A stretch of DNA of 64,000 bases, from positions 1 to 64,000 of the forward strand of contig CANLYR010000008.1 in the NCBI GenBank assembly GCA_947495425.1, given 5' to 3'. Of this stretch, positions 6,348 to 45,409 are shown one piece after another. The position numbers and the translations under genes were made by a program. The notes beneath the pieces were generated by a model. The model saw only the letters and a list, made by a program, of their open reading frames with translations. It ran no database searches and had not been told where the DNA came from. The DNA is from an uncultured Aquimarina sp. (GTDB taxonomy: Bacteria > Bacteroidota > Bacteroidia > Flavobacteriales > Flavobacteriaceae). Position 1 is the first letter of the stretch. The number at the start of each line of letters is the position of its first letter.

Positions 6348-6420
6348 TGGTCTATGGTGTAACTGGCAACACGTCTGTTTTTGGTACAGAAGAGTCTAGG
6401 TTCGAGCCCTAGTAGACCAA
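6348..6420 (+). tRNA. tRNA-Gln (anticodon UUG)
   Basis: A full cloverleaf can be folded. The acceptor stem TGGTCTA (6348-6354) pairs with TAGACCA (6413-6419), with discriminator A at 6420. The anticodon stem TCTGT/ACAGA encloses the loop TTTTGGT with anticodon TTG. The T arm is CTAGG-TTCGAGC-CCTAG. CCA is not encoded. The last 16 bases (6405-6420) belong to the 55-bp direct repeat that marks the integration site of the downstream element, so the gene is intact at the left boundary and is the attachment site. Confidence 0.95.
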
Positions 6421-6459
6421 CTTAAATCCCTTTAAAACATTTGTTTTTAAAGGGATTTT
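6405..6459 (+). repeat. attL: 55-bp direct repeat, left copy
   Basis: These 55 bases are identical to 19709-19763. They cover the last 16 bases of tRNA-Gln and the whole following terminator hairpin. The base before (G versus T) and the base after (A versus G) differ, which fixes the repeat length. Position at a tRNA 3' end, an integrase gene near the other copy, and mobilization genes between the copies identify it as an attachment site. Confidence 0.92.
6424..6458 (+). terminator. tRNA-Gln terminator, lying inside attL
   Basis: AAATCCCTTTAAAA (6424-6437) pairs with TTTTAAAGGGATTT (6445-6458) around a 7-base loop, and is followed by a T-rich run. An identical copy lies at 19728-19762 inside attR, so the tRNA keeps a terminator whether the element is integrated or excised. 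Confidence 0.8.
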
Positions 6460-6467
6460 ACTTTTTT

Positions 6468-6489
6468 AGGGGGATGAATAGGGGGAAAA
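6468..6489 (+). repeat. Left GGGGG-pair motif near attL
   Basis: AGGGGG (6468-6473) and GGGGG (6481-6485) lie 7 bases apart and are followed by AAAA, starting 9 bases past the att repeat. The same 22-base pattern, with three differences, occurs at 19579-19600 near the right end in the same orientation. It is a candidate binding site for the integrase or an accessory factor. Confidence 0.5.
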
Positions 6490-6601
6490 TGAAGGGTCAA
6501 GGGATCGGATCAAGCCTACTCTATTATATTTAAGTTGGATCAAGACTTAAAGTTTAGTACTTTGGTTAATCTGAATAAGAATTATTATATATTTTTAGAA
6601 T

Positions 6602-7258
6602 ATGTCAGATTATGTAAATTTTTTAGATAGTAGGGATGAGTATTATCGAAAGAAAAGTAAGGATAGTGATTTTGATTATCTTTTGAATTTTGAGAAGGCT
6701 AGAAATAATAATACGAAATTCGGTCTACAAATTCCAAATTTTAACTTCGATAATGAATTTAGTTGTCTTTCCGTTAATGAACCACGTGAAGATATACATA
6801 AAGTATTGATTAAGAGTAACACACAACATGGAAGTACTATTAGTAAATGTTTTAGTTCTTCTTTGGCAGCTCAAAAAGCTATAAAGAATGAATTAGGTAT
6901 TGATTCTATAATAACTCTTGGTAGTCTAATAAGAAATGATAATAAGGAAAAAATGTTTTATGAATCCTTGGAAAAGCTAGAGTATAGACTGAAAAATACA
7001 GACTTTCATTCAAAAGGTATTCATCTACATGCTTGGCTTACTTTACCTGATGGTTTTATTGTAGATGTTAGTGTTGTTGGAACAATGAAAACTAAGGGTA
7101 ATTTTCAAGATGCAACAGGTAACGAAATATTTTTTATTGACGGGAAAAAACAAATTGACTATATTGATAATAAAGATATTTTATCTTATTATCCAATGTT
7201 GTTAGGTATCGAATATAGAGATAGAATAAATATTAGTTCTAAACACCATTCTTCTTAG
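6602..7258 (+). CDS. Cargo protein, possible transglutaminase-like fold
   Basis: This 218-aa soluble protein has no signal peptide or membrane helix, and no family is recognised with certainty. Residues 77-160 show a spaced Cys-His-Asp arrangement: C83 at the start of a predicted helix that runs into LGI, then HAW at 143-145 in a strand of the type HAWLTLPDG, then D155. This spacing and the HAW/PDG context resemble transglutaminase-like or papain-like cysteine enzymes, so a catalytic triad is inferred but not shown. It is the only plus-strand gene of the element, sits at the left end typical of cargo, and is convergent with the phosphoesterase gene. Confidence 0.55.
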   Translation: MSDYVNFLDSRDEYYRKKSKDSDFDYLLNFEKARNNNTKFGLQIPNFNFDNEFSCLSVNEPREDIHKVLIKSNTQHGSTISKCFSSSLAAQKAIKNELGIDSIITLGSLIRNDNKEKMFYESLEKLEYRLKNTDFHSKGIHLHAWLTLPDGFIVDVSVVGTMKTKGNFQDATGNEIFFIDGKKQIDYIDNKDILSYYPMLLGIEYRDRINISSKHHSS

Positions 7259-7390
7259 TGTAATTATAATTAAAATTAATTTTAGCAAGCGTAGCGCGCA
7301 GCCCCAATCTACCAAAACTAATACTATGAAATGAACGGCAAAAAACCTTTAATCTTATTTATCATGAATGAACTTGACTTTAAAAGCGTA

Positions 7391-7460
7391 CCAAAATGCA
7401 CGTGGTTTTAAAAAAGTAAATATCTTGCAAATGTGAACTCAAAAAACCACGTGCATTTGG
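7391..7460. repeat. Inverted repeat centred on CACGTG arms
   Basis: CCAAAATGCACGTGGTTTT (7391-7409) is matched by its reverse complement, less one base, at 7443-7460 across a 33-base spacer. It lies between the convergent cargo genes. It could be a bidirectional transcription end, a protein-binding pair, or the scar of a small mobile sequence. Neither arm is followed by a clear T run. Confidence 0.55.
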
Positions 7461-7470
7461 GGGCATTTTA

Positions 7471-8004
7471 TCATGTTTTCTTATCCATAATATCAATGAT
7501 ATCTTCATACGAAATCGGATAAAAGTTATGACAATCTACCCCCACATCTATTGCTAAACGTTTTTTAAACGATGGAGCTTTACCATGAGAGTGACCATAT
7601 AAATGAAATGAAAAACTATGTTTACCCCTCCAGGTCATCATTGGATAGTGCATTAATACAATGAGTTTATTATTCACAGAGTTGAGATCTGGTAGTTTTA
7701 ATTCATGATAATGTCTTATCCATTCGAACCTGCTTCTACAGTCCTCATTAAATGTATCATGATTACCCTTTACTAAATGAATCTTTCCTTGTAACTGATT
7801 TAGAATTTCTAAAAGTTTACATGATGCATAGGATTTTGTAATATCTCCCAAATGGTATACATGATCTTCGTTTGAGACTTTTTCATTCCAACGATGTATC
7901 ATAATCTCATTCATTTCATCTACAGATTCAAAAGGCCGTTTAGCTAGTTTTATGATATTAGCATCACCAAAATGATGATCTGCAGTAAAAAATATTTTAC
8001 TCAT
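7471..8004 (-). CDS. Calcineurin-like phosphoesterase
   Basis: This is a 177-aa single-domain metallophosphoesterase with all metal-binding motifs: ADHHFGD near the start, HLGDI, GNHD, HYP and GHSHG. Family members hydrolyse phosphodiesters or phosphomonoesters with a dinuclear metal centre, but the substrate here is unknown. A longer frame begins at 8031, but the ATG at 8004 is preferred: it directly precedes the first conserved motif, and it overlaps the stop of the upstream gene as ATGAGTAA, a typical coupled arrangement. It is cargo of the mobile element, downstream of two small secreted proteins. Confidence 0.85.
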   Translation of the reverse strand: MSKIFFTADHHFGDANIIKLAKRPFESVDEMNEIMIHRWNEKVSNEDHVYHLGDITKSYASCKLLEILNQLQGKIHLVKGNHDTFNEDCRSRFEWIRHYHELKLPDLNSVNNKLIVLMHYPMMTWRGKHSFSFHLYGHSHGKAPSFKKRLAIDVGVDCHNFYPISYEDIIDIMDKKT

Positions 8005-8479
8005 TAGCTGCTTTTTTACCTTCAAAATCACAATGATATGCCAACTCTTCTAAAATGTATAAGTTATCATCTTCTAGACAATTATATTTACCGTCAGGAT
8101 CACATATACCAATAGCTTTGATATAATTGATTTCGAAGCTATCCAAAATTTTACTCATTTTGAATTCAGTTATTAATGATCTAAAATTGCCGTGATTAGT
8201 AATGAATTCCAAAGAAGACAACACCAAATAATCGTCACAACCAATTCCTAAGTCTTCAAAAATGGATGATCCTTGGGCTAAGGGCTTCACTTCTAAAATT
8301 CTGATATTTGATGTTTCAAAACTTTTAGTTGAATCATATTTATTCAGTAAAACTTTTATCCTCGATAAGTTATGCTGTATAGAAGTGTTAACTTTTTCTT
8401 TAATGCGATCATAACTAAGTCCTTGAGAGGTCATACTTAGCGTAGTAAATAAGATTAATGTAGCTATTATCTTTTTCAT
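7997..8479 (-). CDS. Small secreted protein of unknown function, paralogue A
   Basis: This 160-aa protein has an N-terminal Sec signal peptide (about residues 1-19, ending near SQG) and no further membrane helix. I do not recognise a family. It resembles the next gene upstream (8495-9004) in layout: a signal peptide, an early amphipathic segment with IKEKVNTS, a strand with ILEVK, and near the end SFEINYIKAIG followed by YILEEL. It overlaps the phosphoesterase gene by 8 bases and follows its paralogue after 15 bases, so the three form one transcription unit. Periplasmic or outer-membrane location is inferred. Confidence 0.6.
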   Translation of the reverse strand: MKKIIATLILFTTLSMTSQGLSYDRIKEKVNTSIQHNLSRIKVLLNKYDSTKSFETSNIRILEVKPLAQGSSIFEDLGIGCDDYLVLSSLEFITNHGNFRSLITEFKMSKILDSFEINYIKAIGICDPDGKYNCLEDDNLYILEELAYHCDFEGKKAANE

Positions 8480-8494
8480 TGTTATCTTTTTTAG

Positions 8495-9004
8495 TTATTT
8501 ATTAATGTCTAATCGATTCAAAACATAATACTCAGGGTCTTGAATGGGTTCATAATATTCATGCATACTTTTACGCCCCTTGATTTTGATATAATCAATC
8601 TCATATCCATCGATAATCTTTTTGATTGTACATTCTAAAATAGCAGTACCATAGTGACTTATATTCTCAGCACTATATGCGAAATCAAGGGAAGCATTAA
8701 TTCGATAATACTTTGGTGGTACAAAATCAATTTCATTTACTTCTTCTTCGAAATGACCAGCTATTATTTCGATAATTCTAAAGTCAGTAATCGTATCAAA
8801 CTTTAATTTTTGACAATGCTTGGGAAACCGATCACACTTTTGATAAAAGACTTGTCGAAATGATTTGATTGAATTAAAACGAACAGGGAAGTTAGCTTCT
8901 ACAGCCGTATATAATTTTGATTTGATTTCTTGATGCTTTAATTCCTGACCTAATGTGATAAAGCTTATACAAAGCATTAATAATGTTATTATGGTAGTTT
9001 TCAT
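8495..9004 (-). CDS. Small secreted protein of unknown function, paralogue B
   Basis: This 169-aa protein has a signal peptide (about residues 1-19, ending LGQ). No known domain is recognised. Segments IKSKLYTAVEAN, FRIIEI, GYEIDYIKIKG and YYVLNRL correspond in order to similar segments of the downstream protein (7997-8479), suggesting a duplicated gene pair. Its cysteines CDRFPKHC are not shared with the partner. It probably starts the cargo operon, being followed 15 bases later by its paralogue and then by the phosphoesterase. Confidence 0.6.
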   Translation of the reverse strand: MKTTIITLLMLCISFITLGQELKHQEIKSKLYTAVEANFPVRFNSIKSFRQVFYQKCDRFPKHCQKLKFDTITDFRIIEIIAGHFEEEVNEIDFVPPKYYRINASLDFAYSAENISHYGTAILECTIKKIIDGYEIDYIKIKGRKSMHEYYEPIQDPEYYVLNRLDINK

Positions 9005-9179
9005 ATTGTGGTATTTTGATTTTAAAAACGATTTTATTCTATATGGTGTTTTAGTTTTTCAGACCAACTTAGCGCAGTGAAGCAAGCAAAGATTTATGGT
9101 AAGTGCCTGTATAGGCCTTAACGGGAATTTTGTGAAGCTGAACAAGATAAGCTGGTTTAAAAAGAATTAACTCTAGCTA

Positions 9180-10250
9180 TCAGTCATAAAATTCAACATT
9201 AGCGGTAGTCTCGTATTTAGCTCCATTTGAATCTTTAAAAAAGAGAGTAATAGTACCTGTTCTTGCTGATCCTACACCTAGCTCTATTAGCTTACATCCA
9301 AGTAAATTGTTTGCCTCAGTAGTTAGGTCAACTTCAAAGCCTGGAGTGGTATTTATTTCTTCACCAAAATTATATATCGTCATATACAAATCACCTAATT
9401 CTATAGATGTGAAGTACATTGAATAGTTGATTTCTTGCTCTAAATTATCTGGTGGTAAGATTAGCATTCTAAATTCAATTCCATAACGGTAATTTCCTTT
9501 AAGAGGGGTTGGGGTTATAGTTACTTCAAAGTCCGTTTGTAAAGATGTATATTCAACCTTTTGAGACTTTATAATACCGTTGGAGGATTCTATAATAAAT
9601 TCTACTTCTTTATTTTCAACTTCTAGTGACTTAAATCTTCCTTGAATAACTTCTCCTTCTATTTCAAAAAAATCATTTTGTCTAAAACTCTCTTCATTGT
9701 CTAATAATATCAACTCACCATCAATATTTTTGAAATAAGCTTTGTATGTTGCTCCTTCTTCATTTTTTGTTGTATCTAAGCGAAGAATAAAATCCGTGTA
9801 TTCATTAACATAATTCTCATTTTTCTCAAAAGTAATAGTGAAATCAAAGTCTTCTTTTACAATTTGATAAGCTAGTTTATGTTCTTTTCGTAATCCTTTA
9901 TCGTTTTCCAAAAAGGTCTTAACTTGATGTTGTCCTTCTGTTTTAGCAACATACTTTGGAATAATCTCAAGATCGGTGAATTCATACTGTTGCCCTGGCG
10001 AAAGAATACTATTTTCTAGTTTATAGAAGCCTTCTCCTTCTTGTATTTCATATTCGAAGGTATAGGTAGTACCTTCTACAATATGATTAGGAACAATATC
10101 GATAAAAGTGAGTATTTCGGTGTTGATTTTGTTAATAGATAGGTATTGACTTTTGATTTGAAAATCAAATGAATCTTTTACGTTTACTTCGACTGGTTCA
10201 CAGCTTATTATAAATGATAATGCGAACAAAATTAAGATTGATTTTTTCAT
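9180..10250 (-). CDS. TraQ-like conjugation lipoprotein with three repeated domains
   Basis: This 356-aa protein starts with a lipoprotein signal (IISC, C17). It contains three beta-rich units of about 100 residues (about 27-132, 134-236 and 240-355). Each opens with a DF-x-F/V-x-I strand and has the Y-x-F/Y strand and late KDSNG/ENDKG turn seen in TraQ proteins of Bacteroides conjugative transposons, which normally have one such unit. This assignment is by pattern and by position after a TraO-like gene. The start overlaps the traO-like stop by four bases (ATGA). It is the last gene of the mobilization operon. It should lie on the periplasmic face of the outer membrane. Confidence 0.6.
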   Translation of the reverse strand: MKKSILILFALSFIISCEPVEVNVKDSFDFQIKSQYLSINKINTEILTFIDIVPNHIVEGTTYTFEYEIQEGEGFYKLENSILSPGQQYEFTDLEIIPKYVAKTEGQHQVKTFLENDKGLRKEHKLAYQIVKEDFDFTITFEKNENYVNEYTDFILRLDTTKNEEGATYKAYFKNIDGELILLDNEESFRQNDFFEIEGEVIQGRFKSLEVENKEVEFIIESSNGIIKSQKVEYTSLQTDFEVTITPTPLKGNYRYGIEFRMLILPPDNLEQEINYSMYFTSIELGDLYMTIYNFGEEINTTPGFEVDLTTEANNLLGCKLIELGVGSARTGTITLFFKDSNGAKYETTANVEFYD

Positions 10251-10924
10251 TGTGCTTGATTTTTAAGAATTGAATATTTTAGACCTAGACCCACAAAGAA
10301 TTTTGTTTTGCCTATGTCACTATTAGCATGGTAGTATATATTGGTTTTAGTGTTTAAGGATAATCTTTCGGAGATATGAATATCTGCATCGAGACCTCCA
10401 AATCCACCATAAATGACTTTGCTTTCATCTGTTATCATAGCTCCATTTGACAATTGAAGCTCACCTTTATTAATATCTTCATAACCTATTATGCCTCCTG
10501 CACCCATTGCAATTACGAATTGTTTGTTAGCTGCACTTAGTATTGGCAGTTTCACAAAATATCCTGCATTTAGAGTGTATTGATCTATAGAAATATTGTA
10601 GTCGGATTCTTTCTCTTTTAGAAATGATGCTAAAAAGCTCAGTTCTAAAAAGTTGTTTTTTCTTTTTTCAGCATTGCTATTATAATAACTGTAGCTCCCT
10701 AAAATTGAAAATCCGTTCTCTGAATATCCTCCCAGAATAGAAAATGCTTGCTTTTTTAGTCCTACTTCGAGAATGCTTTCTTTTAAATCGTATAGACCGG
10801 TAAGCAATTTCTCATTTTCTTCTTTTAGGGTTTCAAGCAATGCTACTGTTTGATCTTCCGATTTTTGTGCGAATAGATTAAGGCTACTCAATAGAAGTAA
10901 TCCCCATAAAATTGTGTTTTTCAT
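10247..10924 (-). CDS. TraO-like conjugal transfer outer-membrane protein
   Basis: This 225-aa protein has a signal peptide ending FAQ (about residue 20), a short coiled-coil-like segment (about 24-55, Leu/Glu-rich), and then a small beta-barrel domain. The barrel part has the run GYF, a hydrophobic strand ending in GAGGIIGYED, and later YGGFGGLDAD, matching the TraO family of CTnDOT-type elements. TraO is needed for mating-pair formation in those systems. Here it stands without traA-N and lies between the coupling-protein gene and a TraQ-like gene. The coiled-coil N-terminus may be an addition relative to the usual family. Confidence 0.7.
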   Translation of the reverse strand: MKNTILWGLLLLSSLNLFAQKSEDQTVALLETLKEENEKLLTGLYDLKESILEVGLKKQAFSILGGYSENGFSILGSYSYYNSNAEKRKNNFLELSFLASFLKEKESDYNISIDQYTLNAGYFVKLPILSAANKQFVIAMGAGGIIGYEDINKGELQLSNGAMITDESKVIYGGFGGLDADIHISERLSLNTKTNIYYHANSDIGKTKFFVGLGLKYSILKNQAQ

Positions 10925-10957
10925 ATGTGTGATTTTTATTGATTTGTGTATTTGTTT

Positions 10958-12775
10958 TCAGAGATCTATTAATCCAGATTGTACTTTTTCATCAGATAGA
11001 ATACTTTTTGCTTCTTGAATGATTTTGGAGTAATTGAAATCAAGCAAGTATTGATCTGCAGCTCTTGTTTTAATGACATCTTTATGAACTTCTGTTTTGT
11101 CATAGCTAAATTGATGTTTGATAAATTCACGCGGCTTACCTTCGGCTATAAGTCCATAGAATTGCCCTGGTTCCGCTTTGAGTATTTCGCTGATTTTTAC
11201 CCGATCTCTTTCCTGGATACTTTGACTTTTCCCTCTTCCATCATTTGTATTGAAGTGTACCATGGTGCCAGAAGATCCTGTATTCCTATTTTTAGCCCAA
11301 TACACTTTATCTTCTTTGCTAAACAAGCTTTTAATCATTTCTGCAGTTTTAGCATTAGAAGTTCTTCCATAGAATTGATTTCCTAAGTTGGATAGTAATA
11401 CTTGTGCTTTATCCTGTCCGTATTTTTCTACAGTTTGACTAAAATCCTGTACTCCAAATACAGTTGATATTTTATTGCTTCGCCCTGTGGCAGGTAATTG
11501 TTCTATGTTTGGTAAATATAATGTGGGAGCTTCGTCAAGAATTAATGCACTTGGATGCTTATCAGGTTGATTCATCAGCCTTGTACATACAGATATGATT
11601 AATGAAATGGCAGGAGCATACGTACTAGGTAATGTACTATCATTTCCAATACATAAAAACTTAGGTTCACTCGGGTCGTTTAAATCTAGTGTCAAGTCAT
11701 CACCAGTAAGCAACCAAAAAATATCTGGTGTATTTAATCTAGATAAAGCTGTCTGCAAAGTAGATATAACCCCTGCAACTTGCTTTTCAGCACCTCTTTG
11801 CATAGCCTGTCTTAGACTTACTACCATTCCTGCAGTTTCTGGATCAGAGCTTACCTTGTCAAGTAATGTCTTAGTGTCTGTTTCTAGGATTAATGCTATA
11901 ATATGTGGCAGACTACAGTATTCCTGATGGTTTTTTTTGATATACCAAATGATACCTGTTAGAATAGACTGCGCATCTCGATCCCAAAACTTACGCTCTT
12001 TGATAGTCTCAGGCAATAGATTATTTATGATTACTTCGGCATACTCAAAGGCATAAGCCGATTTCATTAAGTATGCAGGGTGTAAAGGATTTACCCGATT
12101 ACTTTTTAATGGGTTTTTGAAATCAATAAAATAAGCTTCAGTAGAACTCTGGAAATGGTTAATGTAGTAGTATAGATATTTTGTAAGTTCTCCACTCTTG
12201 AAATCATATAGTATTCCAGAATATGATTGTTCTACAAATTTTCTGATGATGGGTTTGAAAATACTTTCAGATTTACCAGATCCTGCACCACCTTGAATAT
12301 ATATACCTCTTGCAGGATTGTCTAAATAAACTTTGTTTGGCTTTGCATCAAATACTATTCTCGAAGGGTTTGCAATAGATTTTTCAGACTTCTTTTTACT
12401 TGTTGTCTTTCTTTTAAAAGCAAAAATTAATACGGATAGAAGAATCAAAAATGCATTTACAGCTAAATATATTTGGTGCCCTGACTCTGCATTTTCGATT
12501 TTTTCTAAACCGAGTAGCATAGTCCAAGCTTGACCTTCAATAATTAGAAAAACACTAGTGATGAGTAAAGATTTAAAGAATCTCTTGGCTAGCTTTGTAA
12601 TAGGAATAAATATTAATATCGGATGTATCATAAATGATGCCTGATAAAGAATTGACAATTCCGATTCTTCAGACATTATCATACGGGTAATTCCTAAACC
12701 TATCCAAGCAATGGGCACCATGATGATGGATAGATAAATTACATATTTGGCTAGTTTTAATACGATTGAAATCAT
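10958..12775 (-). CDS. Type IV coupling protein (VirD4/TraG-like)
   Basis: This is a 605-aa protein with membrane helices in the first about 120 residues, followed by a cytosolic ATPase. Walker A is GGAGSGKS at 162-169, and Walker B is LILDE at 411-415 followed by the TraM-recognition-type segment. Coupling proteins bring the relaxase-DNA complex to the secretion channel. In Bacteroides elements the equivalent is often called MobC. The gene overlaps the relaxase gene by four bases, and the pair forms the core mobilization unit. The length is typical. The C-terminus has no unusual extension. Confidence 0.9.
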   Translation of the reverse strand: MISIVLKLAKYVIYLSIIMVPIAWIGLGITRMIMSEESELSILYQASFMIHPILIFIPITKLAKRFFKSLLITSVFLIIEGQAWTMLLGLEKIENAESGHQIYLAVNAFLILLSVLIFAFKRKTTSKKKSEKSIANPSRIVFDAKPNKVYLDNPARGIYIQGGAGSGKSESIFKPIIRKFVEQSYSGILYDFKSGELTKYLYYYINHFQSSTEAYFIDFKNPLKSNRVNPLHPAYLMKSAYAFEYAEVIINNLLPETIKERKFWDRDAQSILTGIIWYIKKNHQEYCSLPHIIALILETDTKTLLDKVSSDPETAGMVVSLRQAMQRGAEKQVAGVISTLQTALSRLNTPDIFWLLTGDDLTLDLNDPSEPKFLCIGNDSTLPSTYAPAISLIISVCTRLMNQPDKHPSALILDEAPTLYLPNIEQLPATGRSNKISTVFGVQDFSQTVEKYGQDKAQVLLSNLGNQFYGRTSNAKTAEMIKSLFSKEDKVYWAKNRNTGSSGTMVHFNTNDGRGKSQSIQERDRVKISEILKAEPGQFYGLIAEGKPREFIKHQFSYDKTEVHKDVIKTRAADQYLLDFNYSKIIQEAKSILSDEKVQSGLIDL

Positions 12776-13662
12776 AATTCTAGGGATTTAGTGTTAGACA
12801 TTTCTTGTGCTTTCTCTTTTTCGATTCTGTTTTGAATCTTATACTTTTCTTCGGGAGATCCGTTTTTGAGAGTATTTTGAACTTCAAATTTTTCTACTTC
12901 CTTTCTCTGGTATTGAAATTTTTGATCAAAGGTTTTCTCGTTTTTGTTGATCCATTCTTTGCGATCAAAACCAACCGTGTAGTTATTTTTACCAATAGTG
13001 CGTTTTGTGTTTTTTTCATTAGCTACTGGACTAAGCTTTAATCGTTGTGTTTTATCCTTTCTGCTCACGATAATGTGTATATGAGATTGCAGTCCTGGTT
13101 TGTTTTCTCCCGACTTTGCATTACCATTTAAAACCTCGGGATCTGTACCTTTATATTTTCTTTGATGTTCTATTTTACCGAAGTAGACCAAATCGCCACC
13201 ATGTTTTAAGCCTTTCTCTTGTCGATTAAAATTCTCAGCATAATTATTCATAGCCGATCGACCATATTCTCTAAGGTTTTGATTGTATTTATCAAATTCG
13301 CTTTTACTCATTTCTGATACATTTTGTATTTCTCGACCATTCGTTGCTTTTTGTGTAAGATGATTTAATTCCTCTTTGCTAAAGTTGATTGTTGGGGCAT
13401 AGAATTTTGCATCATTTTGTCCTAATTTCCTTTTGTTTTGGTCAATAGTATCTCGCACATCGATTCTAGAATGATGATCATTCTCATGAGAAAAAAAACC
13501 TTGTTTTCTGTCGAGGTGTTCCTGTCCTTTTTCCTTATCCTTTTCATTCAAAGCAAGCTTATCTAGTTCTTGATTTTCTTTATCTAGATACTCTACAAGA
13601 TTTGCACTACTTCCAGTATTATTTCCTCCTGCACTACTATGTGGTTTACTAATTGGCATCAT
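12772..13662 (-). CDS. Relaxase (MobB/DUF5712-like)
   Basis: This 296-aa, strongly charged protein has a core motif SHIHIIVSR around H194 and H196, which fits the histidine pair of HUH-type relaxases that hold the metal at oriT. Upstream Tyr residues (Y133, Y141 in the NNYAENFNR context) are candidates for the nicking tyrosine. The overall pattern resembles the DUF5712 relaxases of Bacteroidota elements. Two adjacent ATG codons (ATGATG) overlap the stop of the BfmA-like gene, and the stop overlaps the coupling protein start, so the three are translationally coupled. The relaxase would nick the candidate oriT at 14243-14281. Confidence 0.8.
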   Translation of the reverse strand: MMPISKPHSSAGGNNTGSSANLVEYLDKENQELDKLALNEKDKEKGQEHLDRKQGFFSHENDHHSRIDVRDTIDQNKRKLGQNDAKFYAPTINFSKEELNHLTQKATNGREIQNVSEMSKSEFDKYNQNLREYGRSAMNNYAENFNRQEKGLKHGGDLVYFGKIEHQRKYKGTDPEVLNGNAKSGENKPGLQSHIHIIVSRKDKTQRLKLSPVANEKNTKRTIGKNNYTVGFDRKEWINKNEKTFDQKFQYQRKEVEKFEVQNTLKNGSPEEKYKIQNRIEKEKAQEMSNTKSLEL

Positions 13663-14123
13663 TTAAAAATGTCTTTGATTTGGCTTGTTAATCCTGATCT
13701 GTTTTTGGGATCTAAATTTTGAGCAATAGTCAGAATAGAGTTTTGTTGTTTAATCAATTCCTGTTGCACAAGTTGTGTTCTGTCTTTATCTGCACCATTC
13801 ATTTTATCTAATAATTCTTTGAGTGATTGAGTCAGGCTTTCTATTTTCGCTTGCTGCTCTTTTGAATACGAGTAGACTTCATTTCGCATTGGCTTTAGAA
13901 TGTCTCTTTCTTGTACTTTCAGGAAAGAAACTATCCTTTTGTCTAATGCTTTTACCATCACAGAAGGGTTTTTGTTTGAAGCATCTTTTGGATCAATTCC
14001 AGTCTTTTTGAAATACAATATCATATGCTCTACAAGAGCACCTAATGGTAGATTTAAAGTCTGAGAAAGTAACTTTAAGTCGTTATGATATTTTTGATTT
14101 ATTAGGATACTTTTCTTGTTCAT
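13659..14123 (-). CDS. BfmA/BtgA-like mobilization accessory protein
   Basis: This is a 154-aa protein with an N-terminal ribbon-helix-helix-like DNA-binding segment (about 1-50, with YFKKTGIDPKD), then a long helical region likely to form a coiled coil (about 75-135). The sequence pattern resembles the BfmA/BtgA mobilization proteins of Bacteroides plasmids and transposons, which bind near oriT and assist the relaxase. It is the first gene of the mobilization operon, directly downstream of the candidate oriT, and overlaps the relaxase gene by four bases. Confidence 0.75.
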   Translation of the reverse strand: MNKKSILINQKYHNDLKLLSQTLNLPLGALVEHMILYFKKTGIDPKDASNKNPSVMVKALDKRIVSFLKVQERDILKPMRNEVYSYSKEQQAKIESLTQSLKELLDKMNGADKDRTQLVQQELIKQQNSILTIAQNLDPKNRSGLTSQIKDIFK

Positions 14124-14164
14124 TTTATAATTATTGTATTTGTAAATCAGTGATTTATATGTTG

Positions 14165-14194
14165 GATTATAATTTTGTTATAACTCGTTATAAT
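14165..14194. promoter_or_regulatory. Helically phased TTATAA boxes upstream of mobilization operon
   Basis: TTATAA occurs at 14167-14172, 14178-14183 and 14188-14193, spaced 11 and 10 bases apart, that is about one helical turn. The middle copy lies in the palindrome GTTATAAC. The array sits between the candidate oriT hairpin and the BfmA-like gene, where a relaxosome or regulator site is expected. Confidence 0.45.
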
Positions 14195-14242
14195 CTTTGA
14201 TTCTTTGTTAAAGCAGGTTTTACCTGTGTTTAGCCCCGCAGG

Positions 14243-14281
14243 GCAAGTCGGATAGGGGGTGTAAGCCCCTGTCCGACTTGC
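14243..14281. other. Candidate oriT hairpin
   Basis: GCAAGTCGGATAGGGG (14243-14258) pairs with CCCCTGTCCGACTTGC (14266-14281), with only one T-G wobble, around a 7-base loop. This is the most stable inverted repeat in the element and is GC-rich against an AT-rich background. It lies between the replication-type genes and the mobilization operon and lacks a T run on either strand, so oriT is preferred over a terminator. A shorter GCCC-CGCA-GGGC hairpin abuts it at 14232-14243. Confidence 0.5.
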
Positions 14282-14296
14282 TTCCTTACAGTAACA

Positions 14297-15049
14297 TTAA
14301 AACCTTCTGGTTTTACCACCTAGTTCAATGAAATTGAACATTTCAAAAATCCTATCATAAACTTGTTTCCCGTAGATTTTTCTTAATGATTGGATGGATA
14401 AGTTGGTAGTTACAAAAGTCTTTGTTCCTTTCTCCTTAAAATTGTTGTAACGTATCTGTAGAAGTCGTTCAAATAAGTGCTCTTTTACACCCCAAGCTTG
14501 CACCATTTTTTCAGTACCTAAATCGTCAAAATGCACCATTCCTCTGCTATATTTTTCGACAACAGATTCTCCTTCTAAATTGAATTCAGTAATTACTTGA
14601 TGAACAGAAACATTTGAAAACCAAAATTGTATGAGGTTATAATGTTTGCTTATGTTTCTTACAATATCAAACACAGAACTTTTACCAGTACCACATGGAC
14701 CATAAATAAATAATCCTTTCCGTAACTCTCCGTCAGTTCGTTTTTCAAATTCTTCATCATTTGCAAAGTATCTGCATATCAAATCAAGAAATTCTTTATT
14801 ATGCTCGTCCACTATAAATTTCCTGTTTAGCTTTCTGAAATAAGTCTTGCCGTGTTTCCAAAAGAGCGTCTTAAACTGTTCTGTTGGTATGTGATGATAT
14901 TTTATTGGTTCTGGTTGAGATAGAATACGATCAAAATATTCCTTGATTGGTGTGTAATCTTTTTTTTCTTGCGCAACTCTTTTTTTTCTTTCTTCATCCG
15001 TTTCCAATCCCATTTCTATTTTTATGCGTTGTCCTAATGAATTTTTCAT
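14297..15049 (-). CDS. DnaC/IstB-like AAA+ ATPase
   Basis: This is a 250-aa protein. After a charged N-terminal region comes an AAA+ core with Walker A GPCGTGKS (117-124), Walker B VHFDDLG (172-178), the sensor segment TKTFVTTNLS, and a terminal arginine-containing region DRIFEMF. This is the helicase-loader type (DnaC-like), also related to IstB. The upstream overlapping gene encodes a winged-helix protein of the replication-initiator kind and no transposase is nearby, so a role in replicating the excised circle is more likely than transposition. It overlaps the preceding gene by four bases. Confidence 0.8.
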   Translation of the reverse strand: MKNSLGQRIKIEMGLETDEERKKRVAQEKKDYTPIKEYFDRILSQPEPIKYHHIPTEQFKTLFWKHGKTYFRKLNRKFIVDEHNKEFLDLICRYFANDEEFEKRTDGELRKGLFIYGPCGTGKSSVFDIVRNISKHYNLIQFWFSNVSVHQVITEFNLEGESVVEKYSRGMVHFDDLGTEKMVQAWGVKEHLFERLLQIRYNNFKEKGTKTFVTTNLSIQSLRKIYGKQVYDRIFEMFNFIELGGKTRRF

Positions 15050-15471
15050 TGTTTTCGGGGATTTACATTTTTGATATTTTTAACCTTTTTCTTTAAATAA
15101 TTATTAGATTTATTATTTAAAACTTTATTATTATCTATCAAGATATCTTGTATAGGCCTATTCAAGTTTTCTTGTATAGGCTTCTCAAAAATTGTGATAT
15201 ACCTATTCAAGATTTCTTTAGTACCCCTATCTCTATACACAAACCGTTTTATATATCCGTATTTCTCTAATTGCTGAAGCCAGGTGTTTATTGATTGAGT
15301 AGATACTTTATATAATTCTTCAAAATATCTATTGCTTGCATAACAAAACCCTACTTGATTGGTTAAAGATGTTATCTCTGCATAAAGAATTTTCGCATTG
15401 GGAGTAAGCCGCTTATCATATCTAACAGGTGCAGGCAAAATAGAATAATATGAAGGTTCTATATTTTTCAT
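15046..15471 (-). CDS. Winged-helix protein, replication-module type
   Basis: This 141-aa protein has an N-terminal winged helix (about 20-95). Its segment LTPNAKILYAEI, followed by the turn and recognition helix STQSINTWLQQLEKYGYI, is typical of HTH_36 domains of phage and plasmid replisome organizers. The C-terminal 45 residues are Asn/Lys-rich and low in complexity. Together with the DnaC-like gene it forms a replication pair like that of many phages and mobile elements. It overlaps the next gene by four bases and the previous gene by one base. Confidence 0.7.
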   Translation of the reverse strand: MKNIEPSYYSILPAPVRYDKRLTPNAKILYAEITSLTNQVGFCYASNRYFEELYKVSTQSINTWLQQLEKYGYIKRFVYRDRGTKEILNRYITIFEKPIQENLNRPIQDILIDNNKVLNNKSNNYLKKKVKNIKNVNPRKQ

Positions 15472-15773
15472 TATTTTCGACTTGCCTTGACTAGATTAGT
15501 ATTTTTCCTTGCTTGTTCCAGAAGTTCTTTTTTGGAATAGAATACGGATCTACCGATCTGATAAAAGGGTATTAGTTTTTTCTTTTTCCACTTAATTAGA
15601 CATTGAACAGAAACACCCATTAGTTCTGCAGCTTCTTTTTGAGTTAAGCGATCTTCTTCTGGATTGGTAGAGGATTCATTGATAAGCTCGGTTCTTCTAA
15701 GACGATTAACTACTAATTCAATAGTGTGTTCTAAGTCCTTTTTTGTGAAACCGTATAATATTGGATTATTCAT
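15471..15773 (-). CDS. Excisionase-like helix-turn-helix protein
   Basis: This 100-aa protein carries a MerR/HTH_17-type DNA-binding domain (about 43-92). It has LTQKEAAELMGVSVQCLIKW, then a short wing with IGRSVFYSKKEL. Such small proteins in integrative elements of Bacteroidota serve as recombination directionality factors or as activators of excision and mobilization operons. It is the first gene of the unit that continues into the winged-helix and DnaC-like genes. A CACTGT-N9-ACAGTG inverted repeat lies only a few bases upstream of its start and may be its own operator. Confidence 0.75.
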   Translation of the reverse strand: MNNPILYGFTKKDLEHTIELVVNRLRRTELINESSTNPEEDRLTQKEAAELMGVSVQCLIKWKKKKLIPFYQIGRSVFYSKKELLEQARKNTNLVKASRK

Positions 15774-15778
15774 GTTAA

Positions 15779-15799
15779 CACTGTTTTAATTCGACAGTG
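15779..15799. promoter_or_regulatory. Possible operator before the excisionase-like gene
   Basis: CACTGT (15779-15784) and ACAGTG (15794-15799) form a perfect inverted repeat with 9 bases between the arms. It begins 6 bases upstream of the start codon of the HTH gene at 15773. A self-regulatory site is the simplest reading, but no experimental analogue is known to me. Confidence 0.35.
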
Positions 15800-15928
15800 C
15801 TAATCTATTTTAAGGTTACCTTTTAGAGAATTATAATTTTTAGAAAAAGCCGATCGGGAAAGTTCCTAAATTATTGTTATTCAGGTGTTTGAAAGTTGTT
15901 AAAAAAATGGATTTAAGTTGAAATAAAC

Positions 15929-17245
15929 TTAATAATTTCTCGTTCTCATCTCATTTGATAATGCTTTAACCGAGGTAAGGCCATTAAAGTTGAACTCTTT
16001 TTCTGCTTCAACAGTCTTATGGATTTTATTTAAACTTGGATAAGAAAATCCTCTTGAATCGTAATTCAAATTATCACTAATTAATTTTGGTATAGAAATT
16101 TTCTTATCTATTAGATACTGTTTACTATCTCTTAAGAAAACAATAAATTCGATAAGGACAACATTGTTAATTTTGATTGATGTGTCAATGATGTGCTCTT
16201 CTGGTTCTGTACTGCTAGAGTAAAATAAATTATCTATAATTTTTTTTGCTATCTGATATAGTTCGGATTTCGGGAGGTTAGAGTTTTCTTTTGATAATAG
16301 CCAAGCCATTCCTTTTGTAATCGGTTTTAAGTGCTTTACTTCTCGAACTTCTATCCTATTTCTCTTAAGTTGAGTTTTTAATCTCTTAACGGTCTTTTTT
16401 GTTTCATTGTACCTCCTTATAAGAGCTTTGTTAAAATCCCTTTTCAGTTTATTATTACCCAAAGATTCAAGGAAGTGTTTTTTACGTCCAAGCCAAAAAT
16501 GTATAGGATAAATAAATAAATCCTTGTGTTCATTCCAATAATGTAGCCAGTAGTCTGTTTCATTAACATCAATCAATGGAATATTGTTTAAGGTGTAGGG
16601 CAGTAGTACTTCAAGCTCAATTAAATTTTCTGTAAATTTTATTTTCTTTTGGATTACTTCTTCTAATGAATTGGAAAGCATTAATTCATTTAAAATTATC
16701 TTTTCCCATTGCTCATGTCTAAACAATAGCGGGCTGTATAGACTTATCTTCGAATCATATAAAATCGACGCACTATCCTTCATTTTTTTATCTACGCTTT
16801 TTAAGTCATATTCAAAACGTATTTTTTCAAGAGTATTTGCATATTCAGTGAGAAGGTATAAGACACTACCACAGTAATACTCTAAACGAAGTTCTTCAAT
16901 TTTTACATCACTCAATTTACTTATTTGATACTCATCTTCATCGATGAATTCTTTTGGAGATAGTTCTAATATTTTTTTATATAACTGGTTGGTTTCTTTA
17001 TCGAAATAAATATTTGAATTAAGTCTTTCTCTGTCATATTCATATTGGTTTATTTCATCCTTGAATATTTCATCAATACCAATGAGATCAACTATTTGAT
17101 TCATATGGTCACTTCCTTTTAGAATTCCTAAGCTGTTCAAGAGCGTAAGGTTACATAGAAAATTTTTGAAGTGATCTAAATCTTCAAGTGTATTTTTCTT
17201 TTCAAAAACAATTAGTTCATCTACTTTGTTAATTTTGACTGACAT
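15929..17245 (-). CDS. Unrecognised 438-aa protein next to the integrase
   Basis: I do not recognise a family. The protein is 438 aa, soluble, with no signal peptide. Secondary structure appears mostly helical, with many Leu/Ile/Lys/Glu residues. A basic coiled-coil-like stretch (about residues 268-300) is rich in Arg and Lys. The segment WLHYWNEHKDLFIYPIHFW contains several tryptophans. It begins only 3 bases after the integrase stop on the same strand, so it is probably co-expressed with the integrase and may be a partner or regulator of recombination. An RteC-like role was considered, but its C-terminal signature could not be found. Confidence 0.6.
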   Translation of the reverse strand: MSVKINKVDELIVFEKKNTLEDLDHFKNFLCNLTLLNSLGILKGSDHMNQIVDLIGIDEIFKDEINQYEYDRERLNSNIYFDKETNQLYKKILELSPKEFIDEDEYQISKLSDVKIEELRLEYYCGSVLYLLTEYANTLEKIRFEYDLKSVDKKMKDSASILYDSKISLYSPLLFRHEQWEKIILNELMLSNSLEEVIQKKIKFTENLIELEVLLPYTLNNIPLIDVNETDYWLHYWNEHKDLFIYPIHFWLGRKKHFLESLGNNKLKRDFNKALIRRYNETKKTVKRLKTQLKRNRIEVREVKHLKPITKGMAWLLSKENSNLPKSELYQIAKKIIDNLFYSSSTEPEEHIIDTSIKINNVVLIEFIVFLRDSKQYLIDKKISIPKLISDNLNYDSRGFSYPSLNKIHKTVEAEKEFNFNGLTSVKALSNEMRTRNY

Positions 17246-17248
17246 AAC

Positions 17249-18487
17249 TTACTTAATTTTATTCCAGGTGTCATCCATTTCTTTCTTCTTAAAATCATCT
17301 GCAATTTCTACATAACGCTTGAAGGATGATTCGTCTTGATGTCCTGTAATATTTCTAACGATCATTTCTTTCATCCCAAGAATAAGACTGTTAGTGACAA
17401 AAGTTTTTCTTGCCGTATGACTTGTAATTAGCTCGTATTTAGGAAGCTCTTTGTCTACTCTTCTTTGACCAATATATCTAGTGATGTTCATCGGAGTATT
17501 GATTTTTACAATCTGGCAACACTCTTTGATATACTTGTTGAATTTCTGAGTAGATATTGCGGGAAGTGGTTCGTATAAAGTGTCTTTATATTTGTCTAGG
17601 ATCGCTTTAGCATAGTTATTTAGGGGTATTTTATGGTCAATAGATTTTGTTTTCTGAATATTTAATCGAATATGATCCTTGAACACATTGGATGATCTTA
17701 GTTGTTTTATATCAGAAAATCTAAGTCCAGTAAAGCAGCCAAAGCAGTAAAAATCTCTTACATGTTCCAGGCGTTTTGAATCAAATTGATAATTGTATAA
17801 AGTCATTAACTCGTCCATCGTCAAGTAGATCACTTCAATAGTATTGCTTACGGTTTTGAATTTTTTAAACTCTAGATTCTCATGGTATTTGCGGTCAAAT
17901 GACCAATTCATAAAAGTTTTGAGTACGGATATAATTCTGCCGAAGTAGTTGTTTAAAGTATTCCTTTCATTAAAAGCATAGTCTCTGAAATCTTCATAGA
18001 AGTTAATGCTTACAGTATCAAATCGAAGGTTATAATTTTTGGCAGTATCAAAGTCTTGTATGAAATTTTTACAGGAAACATATTTCTTGATAGTTCCTTT
18101 TGCTTTAGTGGTCTTATTGGTTTCAATAAATTCTTGGAACGAATCAAAAAATGCAGGTGCAAGGTTATTTGTGCCAAAATTATCACTGTCCAATTTATCA
18201 AGGATATGCTCTTTTGTGAGCGGAACATTATTCAATAATGCGTGTCTGTAAATCAGTTTTACTTTGGTTTCAATATCATCAAGTTCTTTGTTATATTCTA
18301 CATGATAATTATAGATTTCACTTTTTAAGTTGGGTTTGATGCGTTGATTCTTCCAGTCCTTTTCTTTAGCCTTTACATTCTTCACGTTTCTTCTAATGCG
18401 CTTCCCATTTATGGTAATGAGCATTCGTACTGGAATGAAACCATCTTTGTTTATTTTATCTTTTCGTAATGTGAATGAAACTTGCAT
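17249..18487 (-). CDS. Tyrosine site-specific integrase
   Basis: This 412-aa integrase has three parts. Residues about 1-95 form an arm-type DNA-binding domain (MQVSFTLRKDK opening), about 110-205 a SAM-like core-binding domain, and about 220-400 the catalytic domain. The catalytic residues can be placed: R256 in TGLR, a lysine near 279-281, H357-x-x-R360, H383 in TGHQ, and the nucleophile Y392. It would recombine the 55-bp att sequences at the tRNA-Gln 3' end. It lies about 1.2 kb from attR. It sits between the YhcG-type gene (13 bases upstream) and an unknown protein (3 bases downstream), forming a three-gene unit. Confidence 0.93.
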   Translation of the reverse strand: MQVSFTLRKDKINKDGFIPVRMLITINGKRIRRNVKNVKAKEKDWKNQRIKPNLKSEIYNYHVEYNKELDDIETKVKLIYRHALLNNVPLTKEHILDKLDSDNFGTNNLAPAFFDSFQEFIETNKTTKAKGTIKKYVSCKNFIQDFDTAKNYNLRFDTVSINFYEDFRDYAFNERNTLNNYFGRIISVLKTFMNWSFDRKYHENLEFKKFKTVSNTIEVIYLTMDELMTLYNYQFDSKRLEHVRDFYCFGCFTGLRFSDIKQLRSSNVFKDHIRLNIQKTKSIDHKIPLNNYAKAILDKYKDTLYEPLPAISTQKFNKYIKECCQIVKINTPMNITRYIGQRRVDKELPKYELITSHTARKTFVTNSLILGMKEMIVRNITGHQDESSFKRYVEIADDFKKKEMDDTWNKIK

Positions 18488-18500
18488 ACTCCAATTTTTG

Positions 18501-19508
18501 TTAATTATCGAGTATCATTTTTACTCTTTCCTGCAGCTCTTTTTTGTCAGGTAGATATAATTGATATTTTGATACAAATAGTTTATTGGATAAACCGCCA
18601 GTAGCATATTCGACAATCACATCATCTTTATCTGCAGAAAGTATAATGCCTATCGGTTCTTTATCCCCTTCTGTGTTTTCTTCTTTTTTAAAATAATTGA
18701 GGTATAGATTCATTTGACCAATATCCTGATGCTTAACCTCATTGATTTTAAGATCAATCAGGACAAAACACTTTAGAATTCGATGGTAGAAAACTAGATC
18801 AACAAAGAAATGCGTGTTGGCAATAGAAATTCGGTACTGGCTTCCAATAAAGGCAAAACCTTTTCCTAATTCCAATAAAAAATGTTGTAGATGATGTAAT
18901 AGTTTTTGTTCTAGTTCGGATTCGGTTTTCAAACCTTTTTCTGAAATCCCTAGAAATTCAAATACATAAGGATCCTTAACAATGATATCATCGACCTTTG
19001 GAATGAAGCCTTTTTTTGATAATTGCAAAATTTCTTCTTTGTTTTTACTTAAAGCAATCCTTTGAAAAATGGCACTGTCCTTTTGTCGTTTTAGCTCTCG
19101 GATAGACCAATTTTCGATTATCGATTGTTTTTCGTAGAAACTTCTCTCGAGATCATCTCCAATTTTAAGTAATTCAAAATAATGAGACCAACTCAATTTG
19201 TGAGACAGTGTCTCACATTTTGGGTATTTTAAATAAAGCATTCTCATATAGGTAAGATTGCTTCTACTAAATCCTTTGCCAAAACTTGTTTTAAGGTCTT
19301 TTGATAATCGGGTCATAAGAGTAGTTCCGTAATCGGCTTTCTGCTTCCCTTTTTGCTCAAACTCTACAATATGTTTGCCTATCTCCCAATAAGATAATAG
19401 CATTTCATTATGGATGGTTTGGATGGTTTTTTGACGTGCGTTAGTAAAAGTGTTTCCGATTTTAGAAATTAAGTCGGTATATTGCTTTTCTGGAAGTGTA
19501 TTACTCAT
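18501..19508 (-). CDS. YhcG-type PDDEXK nuclease (DUF1016)
   Basis: This is a 335-aa protein with two domains. Residues 1-150 form the DUF1016 N-terminal helical domain (SYWEIGKHIVEFEQ). The C-terminal part (about 190-320) is a PDDEXK nuclease fold with D237 (FFVDLVF), D252-x-K254 (LIDLK) and Q265, where Asp stands in place of the usual Glu. YhcG family members are widespread in mobile elements and close to restriction or defence genes; a DNA-processing or defence role is presumed. It is the gene closest to attR and begins the transcription unit containing the integrase. Confidence 0.85.
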   Translation of the reverse strand: MSNTLPEKQYTDLISKIGNTFTNARQKTIQTIHNEMLLSYWEIGKHIVEFEQKGKQKADYGTTLMTRLSKDLKTSFGKGFSRSNLTYMRMLYLKYPKCETLSHKLSWSHYFELLKIGDDLERSFYEKQSIIENWSIRELKRQKDSAIFQRIALSKNKEEILQLSKKGFIPKVDDIIVKDPYVFEFLGISEKGLKTESELEQKLLHHLQHFLLELGKGFAFIGSQYRISIANTHFFVDLVFYHRILKCFVLIDLKINEVKHQDIGQMNLYLNYFKKEENTEGDKEPIGIILSADKDDVIVEYATGGLSNKLFVSKYQLYLPDKKELQERVKMILDN

Positions 19509-19578
19509 TGTAAAGTTTAATAGCGTATTGCCTATGTTAATTTAACACCTAGTAAATATGGATTAACTTGCATTAATC

Positions 19579-19600
19579 AGGGGGAAGTATAGGGGGAAAG
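19579..19600 (+). repeat. Right GGGGG-pair motif near attR
   Basis: AGGGGG (19579-19584) and AGGGGG (19591-19596), followed by AAAG, repeat the motif at 6468-6489. The spacing and orientation are the same, with three base differences over 22. It lies 108 bases before attR, inside the element. It is a candidate arm-type site for the integrase. Confidence 0.5.
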
Positions 19601-19708
19601 ATTATGGTTAATTTTTGTGAAACAGTAATAACTTTCACTCCTATAAAACCCTTATGTATTCAAATATAAGGAATTAAATAGAAGTAAACAGAATTTAAAA
19701 AGTATGGT

Positions 19709-19763
19709 AGCCCTAGTAGACCAACTTAAATCCCTTTAAAACATTTGTTTTTAAAGGGATTTT
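19709..19763 (+). repeat. attR: 55-bp direct repeat, right copy
   Basis: Identical to 6405-6459. It contains the last 16 bases of tRNA-Gln (without the rest of the gene) and the complete terminator hairpin (19728-19762). It marks the right boundary of the element. Chromosomal sequence resumes at about 19764. Confidence 0.92.
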
Positions 19764-19877
19764 GTTTTTGTAGGAGATATGTATACAAGGAAATAATGGT
19801 TTATACTAATTTTTACATGATATCATGATTTGCTTTTTTTTGATGTGATTGAAACTTTCATATATAGATTATTTTAG

Positions 19878-43108: not shown

Positions 43109-43210
43109 TCTCTCCTAAACAGTATTTTGGTGTTTCGAAATAGGTTAAGGTTGATTTTACTTTATTATTGTAGAAGGATTCGCTAAATTAGTTCTTCGTC
43201 AAAAATGTAT
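43109..43210 (+). repeat. Degenerate intergenic repeat, copy 2
   Basis: Second copy of the sequence at 39570-39672, in the same orientation. The best-conserved blocks are TGTTTCGAAAT, TTTATTATTGTAGA and GGATTCGCTAAATTAGTT. It ends about 45 bases before the cysteine-synthase-like gene. Confidence 0.65.
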
Positions 43211-43255
43211 AATTACTAAGGAGAATCATACAGTTCTTATACACAATTGGAAAAA

Positions 43256-44167: not shown

Positions 44168-44313
44168 ATACCCTACAAGTGCTGGTCACAAATATATCAT
44201 ATCCCGAATAAAAATTTAGATTTGTATTCATCCACTTTGGATTTAAAAATTAGCAGGTAATATTCAAAAAGATAATTACTGCCCTACACAAAGCAATCGG
44301 AATCTCTTTTTAT

Positions 44314-44321: not shown

Positions 44322-44357
44322 TTTTATTCAGAAAATAAAAGAGTCAGCCAGAAGTAT

Positions 44358-45380: not shown

Positions 45381-45409
45381 CAGCTATAACTTAAATAATA
45401 TCATCAATC

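Follow-up and report, generated by a model that had tools for sequence, protein, structure and literature searches.

A family of putative integrative mobilizable elements in Flavobacteriaceae with a TraO-TraQ gene pair behind its own coupling protein

The stretch of DNA analysed here, called the window, comprises 64,000 nucleotides of an uncultured Aquimarina sp. of the Flavobacteriaceae (GenBank assembly GCA_947495425.1, contig CANLYR010000008.1, positions 1 to 64,000 of the forward strand) and carries in its tRNA-Gln(ttg) gene an element of 13,304 bp, counted with one copy of its terminal repeat. As read from the sequence, its anatomy is that of an integrative mobilizable element (IME): attachment (att) repeats with a site-specific integration module that includes a tyrosine integrase, a predicted origin of transfer (oriT), a relaxase recognised by profile, a coupling protein (CP) and, as the only tra genes among its 15 open reading frames (ORFs), traO and traQ (Table 1). 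The gene calls were checked with Pfam and NCBIfam on these 15 ORFs, and the matches bear out both the gene set of the original prediction, from the integrase to the TraQ-like protein, and its view that the element has its own CP and plausible replication genes and lacks a transfer channel, since none of the ORFs matched the channel genes TraG, TraI, TraJ, TraK, TraM or TraN. The candidate oriT, a metallophosphoesterase and a DUF1016/YhcG nuclease are additions to the earlier annotation. The genes mobA-mobB-mobC-traO-traQ form one minus-strand operon with overlaps of 4 bp at mobA/mobB, mobB/mobC and traO/traQ, and traO starts 33 bp past mobC. The CP scores 279 bits against NF041326, far below the model's own cut-off of 900, and is therefore a relative of that subfamily and not an exact member.

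Table 1. Features of the tRNA-Gln element in the window; L numbers are our locus handles.
Feature	Position	Strand	Evidence
tRNA-Gln(ttg), integration site	6348-6421	+	ARAGORN
att repeat, tRNA side (tRNA-Gln 3' end and hairpin)	6405-6470	+	66-nt direct repeat
Hypothetical protein, 218 aa	6602-7258	+	homologue in A. sediminis element L005
Metallophosphoesterase	7471-8031	-	Pfam Metallophos_2, E 7.5e-8
Hypothetical protein, 160 aa	7997-8479	-	signal-peptide-like start (our reading)
Hypothetical protein, 169 aa	8495-9004	-	signal-peptide-like start (our reading)
TraQ-like predicted lipoprotein, 356 aa	9180-10250	-	PF12988, E 8.8e-9
TraO-like predicted outer-membrane beta-barrel	10247-10924	-	PF10626, E 2.7e-21
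MobC-like VirD4-type coupling protein	10958-12775	-	NF041326, E 6.6e-83 (below cut-off); TraG-D_C, E 8.3e-20
MobB relaxase (DUF5712)	12772-13662	-	PF18976, E 1.6e-72; NF041495, E 6.8e-71 (over cut-off)
MobA (BfmA/BtgA-type mobilization protein)	13659-14123	-	NF041200, E 2.2e-15 (over cut-off)
Predicted oriT	14223-14283	-	hairpin, DNA fold, covariation
DnaC/DnaI-like ATPase	14297-15049	-	best NCBIfam PRK08116, E 2.7e-14 (below cut-off)
HTH_36 protein, replication-initiator-like	15046-15471	-	Pfam, E 2.5e-13
Excisionase-like HTH_17 protein	15471-15773	-	HTH_17, E 4.4e-9; TIGR01764 (excise), E 4.2e-6 (just below cut-off)
Hypothetical protein, 438 aa, just downstream of int	15929-17245	-	homologue in L054
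Tyrosine integrase	17249-18487	-	PF00589 Phage_integrase, E 5.5e-10; SAM_5; Arm-DNA-bind_5
DUF1016/YhcG PDDEXK nuclease, cargo	18501-19508	-	Pfam, E 2.8e-60; PADLOC candidate PDC-S02, E 7.8e-135
att repeat, integrase side	19709-19774	+	66-nt direct repeat

The two att copies are 95% identical over 66 nt and identical over the first 55 nt, so the 55-bp repeats noted in the original prediction stand as the identical part of a repeat whose near-identity reaches 66 bp. The final 17 bases of tRNA-Gln lie within the left copy, which then continues through a hairpin. Fifty-five identical bases are far beyond chance, because the remaining direct repeats listed between positions 5500 and 21000 are only 19-23 nt long and 78-90% alike. 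Together with the tyrosine integrase, the repeats uphold the reading as an integrative element in tRNA-Gln, and related genomes supply the empty sites that this reading foresaw. A query made of the tRNA and the repeat matched 60 of 61 genus genomes, and 30 of the matched tRNA-Gln loci were read, 29 of them from other genomes. In the window, the element is followed on its right side by the genes for Fic and then Usp, and 19 of the 29 loci are empty sites with Usp or Fic adjoining tRNA-Gln (Usp in 18 and Fic in one, at a distance of up to about 1 kb downstream), the Usp of three of them (L106, L108, L109) being only about 50% identical. The full single repeat is recognisable next to Usp or Fic in the closest empty loci (L091, L092, L096), and L105 shows a second, partial 23-base match to it. 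Among the remaining ten loci, those of genomes G253 and G250 are occupied by related elements, and eight show neither Usp nor Fic inside the short flank read.

The element is not a random mix of modules but a member of a family. Profile-based annotation of 88 loci, with loci fetched twice counted once in the context count, sorted 69 TraO rows into 16 with channel genes, 12 behind a CP with no channel genes nearby, 34 without any recognised type IV secretion system (T4SS) gene ('solo') and seven with TraN only. The 12 CP-TraO rows and the window make 13 IME-type elements, in all 13 of which TraQ adjoins TraO: the window; an element on contig C16 of the same genome (G000); those of A. sediminis (L005) and a Tenacibaculum sp. 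(L008); and those of G019 (L006/L027), G281 (L007/L065), G177 (L038), G253 (L054), G250 (L079), G303 (L080), G256 (L081), G272 (L083) and G296 (L085). The idiosyncratic mixture of modules supposed in the original prediction is thus not borne out, and the similar gene orders that it proposed to seek in other Flavobacteriia were found as CP-TraO-TraQ in the 12 further elements. The C16 element (about 43187-58961; L003/L004), a second and diverged member of the family in the same genome, lies at tRNA-Arg(acg) with a 16-bp repeat. Its TraO and TraQ are 40% and 37% identical to those of the window element, values below those for the integrase (Int), excisionase (Xis), CP, relaxase and DnaC, while HTH_36 and MobA are lower still.

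The family is not tied to one locus, in agreement with a mobile origin as originally proposed. The tRNA-Gln site is shared by the window, L079 and L054, tRNA-Leu is used in L027 (15-bp repeat), and six of the 13 elements lie at the 3' end of trmE (L005, L007, L008, L038, L080, L085). Repeats at trmE were found only for L038 (12 bp) and L085 (16 bp); in L005, L007, L008 and L080 no repeat of more than 12 bases was found, and the site is assigned from trmE adjoining int. L081 lies near a tRNA-Leu, but no repeat was found there, and no site is assigned to it or to L083. Across these sites the IME TraO proteins keep together. In trees that exclude frames longer than 300 aa they form one side of a branch with a Shimodaira-Hasegawa-like approximate likelihood ratio (SH-aLRT) support of 98 (68 rows), and in a 50-row tree that omits three long rows and alternate 'solo' rows their clade has a support of 99/94 and is present in 100% of 200 bootstrap trees. 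Other modules change: three elements (L054, L079, L080) have a Mob_Pre relaxase instead of MobB, and the replication-like genes are HTH_36 with DnaC, DUF5906 with a Toprim primase (L054) or Rep3 (L085). In the CP tree, the proteins of the three Mob_Pre elements fall into a separate clade (100), distinct from the remaining ten (98), which weakens the view of CP and TraO as a single inseparable lineage; the starred branches of this tree, which carries a long-branch warning, do not force two CP origins.

Most elements were found through TraO, and the statement that each has TraO is therefore partly built in. The samples searched comprised 249 and 397 family genomes, 66 genus genomes and 395 class-level genomes. 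A search with the CP in the 397 family genomes gave, among the matches listed, four places at least 50% identical to the window CP, all four with TraO and TraQ; the next by score was 33% identical, and no other listed row exceeded 37%. Searches with the relaxase gave nine places in the 66 genus genomes, eight of them with CP-TraO-TraQ, and five loci in GTDB contigs, four with TraO-TraQ; the ninth place is L144 and the fifth locus L009, both described below. Within the sample searched, the TraO-TraQ pair goes with the IME-type CP in Flavobacteriaceae. We also considered a wide host range of such IMEs and rejected it: at a cut-off of 1e-80 the CP matched eight places outside G000 in the 395 class-level genomes (37-43% identity), and none of them carried TraO or TraQ by profile in the fetched stretch. 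Among the eight, L147 represents a complete T4SS (TraG, TraI, TraJ, TraK, TraM and TraN), and two others (L148, L152) are short contigs. IME carriage of the pair was therefore seen only in Flavobacteriaceae in this sample.

The predicted oriT consists of a long hairpin and, behind it, a CTTGCCCTGCGGGGCTAA-like sequence, and a hairpin with a CTTGCYCTGCGRGGCT-like stretch just upstream of mobA is common to the 11 MobB-type loci examined, i.e., the ten MobB-type elements of the 13 and L009. Its DNA fold has a z of -4.9, and the ten-pair stem is paired in 93.6% of cells, with six of the ten pairs showing changes in both partners, in 15 cells altogether. The pairing is lost when the partners are slid against each other, and on four of five covariation measures none of 500 shuffles reached the observed value. 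The core of L008, with 8 of 23 mismatches, is a weak match that was accepted solely because of its position before mobA and its hairpin. The best matches to the 23-base core have 8-10 mismatches in the Mob_Pre elements (L054, L079, L080) and likewise in five T4SS stretches (L010, L011, L013, L014, L025), so the oriT sequence appears tied to the IME-type MobB relaxase. A blastn search found no match to the predicted oriT in plasmids.

The AlphaFold2 model of TraO (predicted local distance difference test, pLDDT, 70) has eight long strands after an N-terminal helix, and its best Foldseek matches are the Ail, OmpA and OmpX barrels (E from 2e-6), pointing to a predicted eight-stranded outer-membrane barrel. 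TraQ is modelled as all beta (pLDDT 81; predicted template-modelling score, pTM, 0.51) and in our reading of the model would consist of three immunoglobulin (Ig)-like domains after a lipobox-like start. Its Foldseek matches include many multi-Ig proteins, with the conjugation adhesin PrgB at rank 2, all at low template-modelling scores. The TraQ encoded in the window is 356 aa long, and lengths across the family range from 251 to 565 aa; the TraQ adjoining TraO in T4SS loci has 582-1118 aa in 12 of 13 cases and 142 aa in one. The ratios of nonsynonymous to synonymous substitution rates (dN/dS) between the window and L005 are 0.075 for MobA, 0.058 for MobB, 0.075 for CP, 0.109 for TraO, 0.110 for TraQ and 0.147 for the 169-aa hypothetical protein, and between L006 and L007 they are 0.069 for CP, 0.144 for TraO and 0.318 for TraQ. 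The dS of TraQ between the window and L005 is 1.06, compared with 0.37-0.56 for the other genes. In L007, the first Ig domain of TraQ shares 93% identity with that of L005 and 23% with that of the C16 element, whereas the third shares 48% with L005 and 63% with the C16 element. As judged from these identities, the last Ig domain of TraQ, farthest from the presumed lipid anchor, is swapped between lineages.

In full T4SS clusters, traO-traQ stands right after TraN at the end of the tra cluster. TraN-TraO-TraQ trios occur in six loci (L029, L036, L041-L044) where TraG-M were not recognised in the fetched stretch, and their six TraO proteins form one clade. The genome of the window contains TraM once, on contig C3, in an ICE-like (integrative and conjugative element) region with Int, HTH_36, DnaC, TraG-I-J-K-M-N and MobA-B-C. 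TraO recognised by PF10626 stands no more than 2 kb from TraM at 9 of 102 TraM places in the 249 family genomes, and 6 of 38 places in the genus have TraO, so that, at least to the extent that PF10626 detects it, TraO is an accessory found in a minority of these systems. In G281 and G253, PF10626 found only the IME copy. Beyond conjugative loci, TraO-TraQ or a lone TraO is found among chromosomal genes, with no T4SS gene recognised nearby, in the window's genus (L051-L053, L055, L056, L060-L064, L067-L078, L088), for example near a fumarase-like gene in our reading, and in eight genomes a single contig carries two copies, separated by about 145-175 kb. L031, from another genus, has two TraO-TraQ pairs adjoining what we read as ExbB/ExbD-like genes, and one of its TraQ proteins has 2420 aa.

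With moderate confidence, and by analogy, we propose that this IME family exploits helpers with a mating-pair-formation system of type B (MPF_B) and remodels the outer part of their mating apparatus. The element would be excised by Int and the excisionase-like protein, perhaps followed by a replication round via HTH_36 and DnaC; MobB would nick the predicted oriT, and MobC would dock the strand on the channel of an ICE or conjugative plasmid that is already resident in the cell or newly arriving. The TraO barrel and the TraQ Ig lipoprotein of the IME would then replace, or add to, the outer, partner-facing part of the helper apparatus, replacement being possible only with TraO-positive helpers and addition with TraO-less ones. 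As a result, transfer might favour the IME, reach recipients closed to the helper or escape the helper's exclusion. The compact mob-tra block fits this model, as do the preservation of the pair, its predicted location at the surface and the swapped TraQ tip. More tentatively, TraO-TraQ could be a portable, partner-facing MPF_B surface cassette with which IMEs re-dress any channel they hijack, and a swap of the outermost Ig domain in TraQ would determine the recipient, helper or exclusion group; this would be convergent with Salmonella genomic island 1 (SGI1) down to the trmE site, and would include a part that the co-resident helpers lack.

Several points weigh against the remodelling proposal. 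Neither transfer nor excision nor a circular form of the element was observed; no functional study of either TraO or TraQ is known to us from the literature, and no title listed by our search suggests one. The TraO model is only moderately confident, TraQ may lie on the outer face or in the periplasm, and the fifth oriT measure, 'further pair types', stays within the shuffles (110 of 500 as high). Two relatives depart from the CP-TraO-TraQ arrangement: L144 (G289, trmE site, MobA-MobB) has no CP, TraO or TraQ, and L009 (relaxase 41% identical) has a CP fragment only, with no TraO or TraQ recognised. Three of the 16 T4SS rows with TraO show no TraQ, and 34 of the 69 TraO rows are 'solo' in the fetched stretch, 21 of them with TraQ adjoining; TraO-TraQ may therefore act at the surface independently of conjugation. 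Neither TraO nor TraQ was recognised in the co-resident C3 ICE or in the 19 kb read of the co-resident systems G281:C42 and G253:C12, which for those helpers would mean addition and not SGI1-type replacement. Moreover, TraM is present in only three of 11 IME hosts searched (G000, G281, G253; the count leaves out the host of L008) and was not found in G177, G019, G270, G250, G303, G256, G272 or G296, suggesting that helpers are mostly not resident.

In another explanation, TraO-TraQ would be a general surface adhesion pair, a barrel with an Ig stalk that serves the host cell or cell-cell contact, and would have been recruited repeatedly, by T4SSs, by these IMEs and by chromosomes, with no specific pore remodelling. 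The chromosomal TraO-TraQ loci of the genus, the 2420-aa TraQ of another genus and the adhesins among the Ig-stack fold matches speak for it; the IME TraO clade, however, stands apart from chromosomal TraO, and neither of the two relatives without an intact CP (L144 and L009) was found to carry the pair, so we regard this explanation as unlikely. The predicted locations of TraO in the outer membrane and of TraQ as a lipoprotein would also suit an exclusion or surface-defence device that shields the host from other conjugative elements or bars destabilizing helpers. Two IMEs with diverged TraO and TraQ alleles in one genome would be in keeping with such a device, and IMEs with orphan surface-exclusion genes are on record (PMC11493245). 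IMEs bearing Sfx are proposed to keep out helpers that destabilize them, in the case of IncC. Nevertheless, full systems hold TraO and TraQ inside the tra cluster right after TraN, unlike a separate exclusion gene, and on the IME the pair directly follows mobABC, as expected of transfer genes, which makes a device of this kind unlikely.

We find it improbable that the IME supplies TraO and TraQ to flavobacterial ICEs that lack them, so that without the pair its CP or DNA would not be transferred. The rarity of PF10626 TraO near TraM and the three co-resident systems without TraO would agree with such a need, but TraO-less ICEs presumably transfer without TraO, and a diverged TraO may escape PF10626. 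An ICE that lost its channel genes and kept traO and traQ as leftovers would explain why their order matches the one that closes full tra clusters. We rejected this reading and accord it next to no probability, because a single TraO clade with intact frames and low dN/dS spans 13 elements of several species, and the pair persists while relaxase and replication genes change.

The remaining gene content of the family varies. A metallophosphoesterase lies behind the tra genes in six of the 13 elements (window, C16 element (L003), L007, L038, L081, L083) and in two pieces in L005; its role as a signal-degrading counter-defence would be a guess. The gene for the 169-aa hypothetical protein follows traQ in five of 13. 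A gene of about 370-460 aa adjoins int in the eight elements checked (window, L004, L008, L054, L079, L080, L085, L144), and only that of L054 is recognisably similar to the one in the window; we can merely guess that it occupies the position of RteC-like regulators. The variable region contains candidate anti-phage genes, i.e., QatB/C/D, AbiD, AbiEii, type II restriction-modification genes and DUF1016 (PDC-S02), seen in L054, L027, L083, L003, L038, L065 and the window, the element ends of L083 and L065 not being fixed. The AbiEii-like gene is carried by the C16 element, and a 3072-aa frame that we read as resembling a nonribosomal peptide synthetase starts about 0.6 kb past the integrase-side end of that element. 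With several elements carrying candidate anti-phage genes, the family bears on the spread of mobile DNA in Bacteroidota.

Remodelling of a mating apparatus by hitch-hiking elements has been worked out, in the literature considered, for one system, SGI1 and IncC. TraN_S, TraH_S and TraG_S of SGI1 replace IncC subunits, and this remodelling raises SGI1 transfer; when both donor and recipient bear IncC, TraG_S is crucial (PMC5389848). The specificity of surface exclusion is determined by the donor adhesin TraN (PMC11493245). The family resembles SGI1 in its integrase, its own oriT and mobilization protein, its replication gene and its few mating-apparatus subunits without the rest, given that the TraO and TraQ families occur in MPF_B tra clusters. 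SGI1 sits at the trmE 3' end (PMC8409611), the site of six of our 13 elements, although the window element itself uses tRNA-Gln. The subunits are different, MPF_B TraO and TraQ here and TraN, TraH and TraG in SGI1; none of the 15 ORFs matched the IncC-type proteins in Pfam or NCBIfam, the SGI1 sequence itself not being part of the comparison. Unlike SGI1, the elements carry their own CP and a MobB or Mob_Pre relaxase, and no helper-induced activator was identified in them. SGI1 proper is characterised by the mobilization proteins MpsA/MpsB and the activator SgaCD, and NBU-type Bacteroides IMEs by an NBU integrase, the primase PrmN1 and the relaxase MobN1. GISul2 likewise carries a small subset of pore genes, related to TrbJ, TrbK and TrbL, but these are MPF_T genes, and it is described as having no relaxase or CP of its own (PMC5704250).

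Among CTnDOT-type (MPF_B) systems, the comparison was made with L010, L011 and the C3 ICE of the same genome. TraO and TraQ are shared with L010 and L011, and MobA/B/C, HTH_36 and DnaC with L011 and the C3 ICE. These ICEs or flavobacterial plasmids encode the whole channel, including the TraG (VirB4), TraJ, TraK, TraM and TraN that were not found in the window element, and their TraO falls outside the IME clade. Streptococcal IMEs have a relaxase and a CP without a T4SS. To our knowledge, neither they nor IEVchAut1 have pore or surface subunits, and the TraO-TraQ pair sets our family apart from both. IEVchAut1 is likewise described as an IME with a relaxase and a CP but no T4SS (PMC11389934, PMC11493245).

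The original prediction knew of no described type with this gene combination. IMEs with pore subunits are described in Gammaproteobacteria, namely SGI1 and GISul2 (PMC5704250, PMC5389848), whereas for Bacteroidota our literature search, judged by titles and with little coverage of subscription papers, and hence as weak evidence, found no TraO/TraQ-bearing IME described. The observation of the original prediction is confirmed and its interpretation partly supported. If our proposal is true, the family would provide a first handle on the roles of TraO and TraQ and a second, unrelated case of pore remodelling, this time in Bacteroidota, which would make it a general strategy of hitch-hiking elements. 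By analogy, the family would then be the MPF_B counterpart of SGI1 with a coupling protein of its own.

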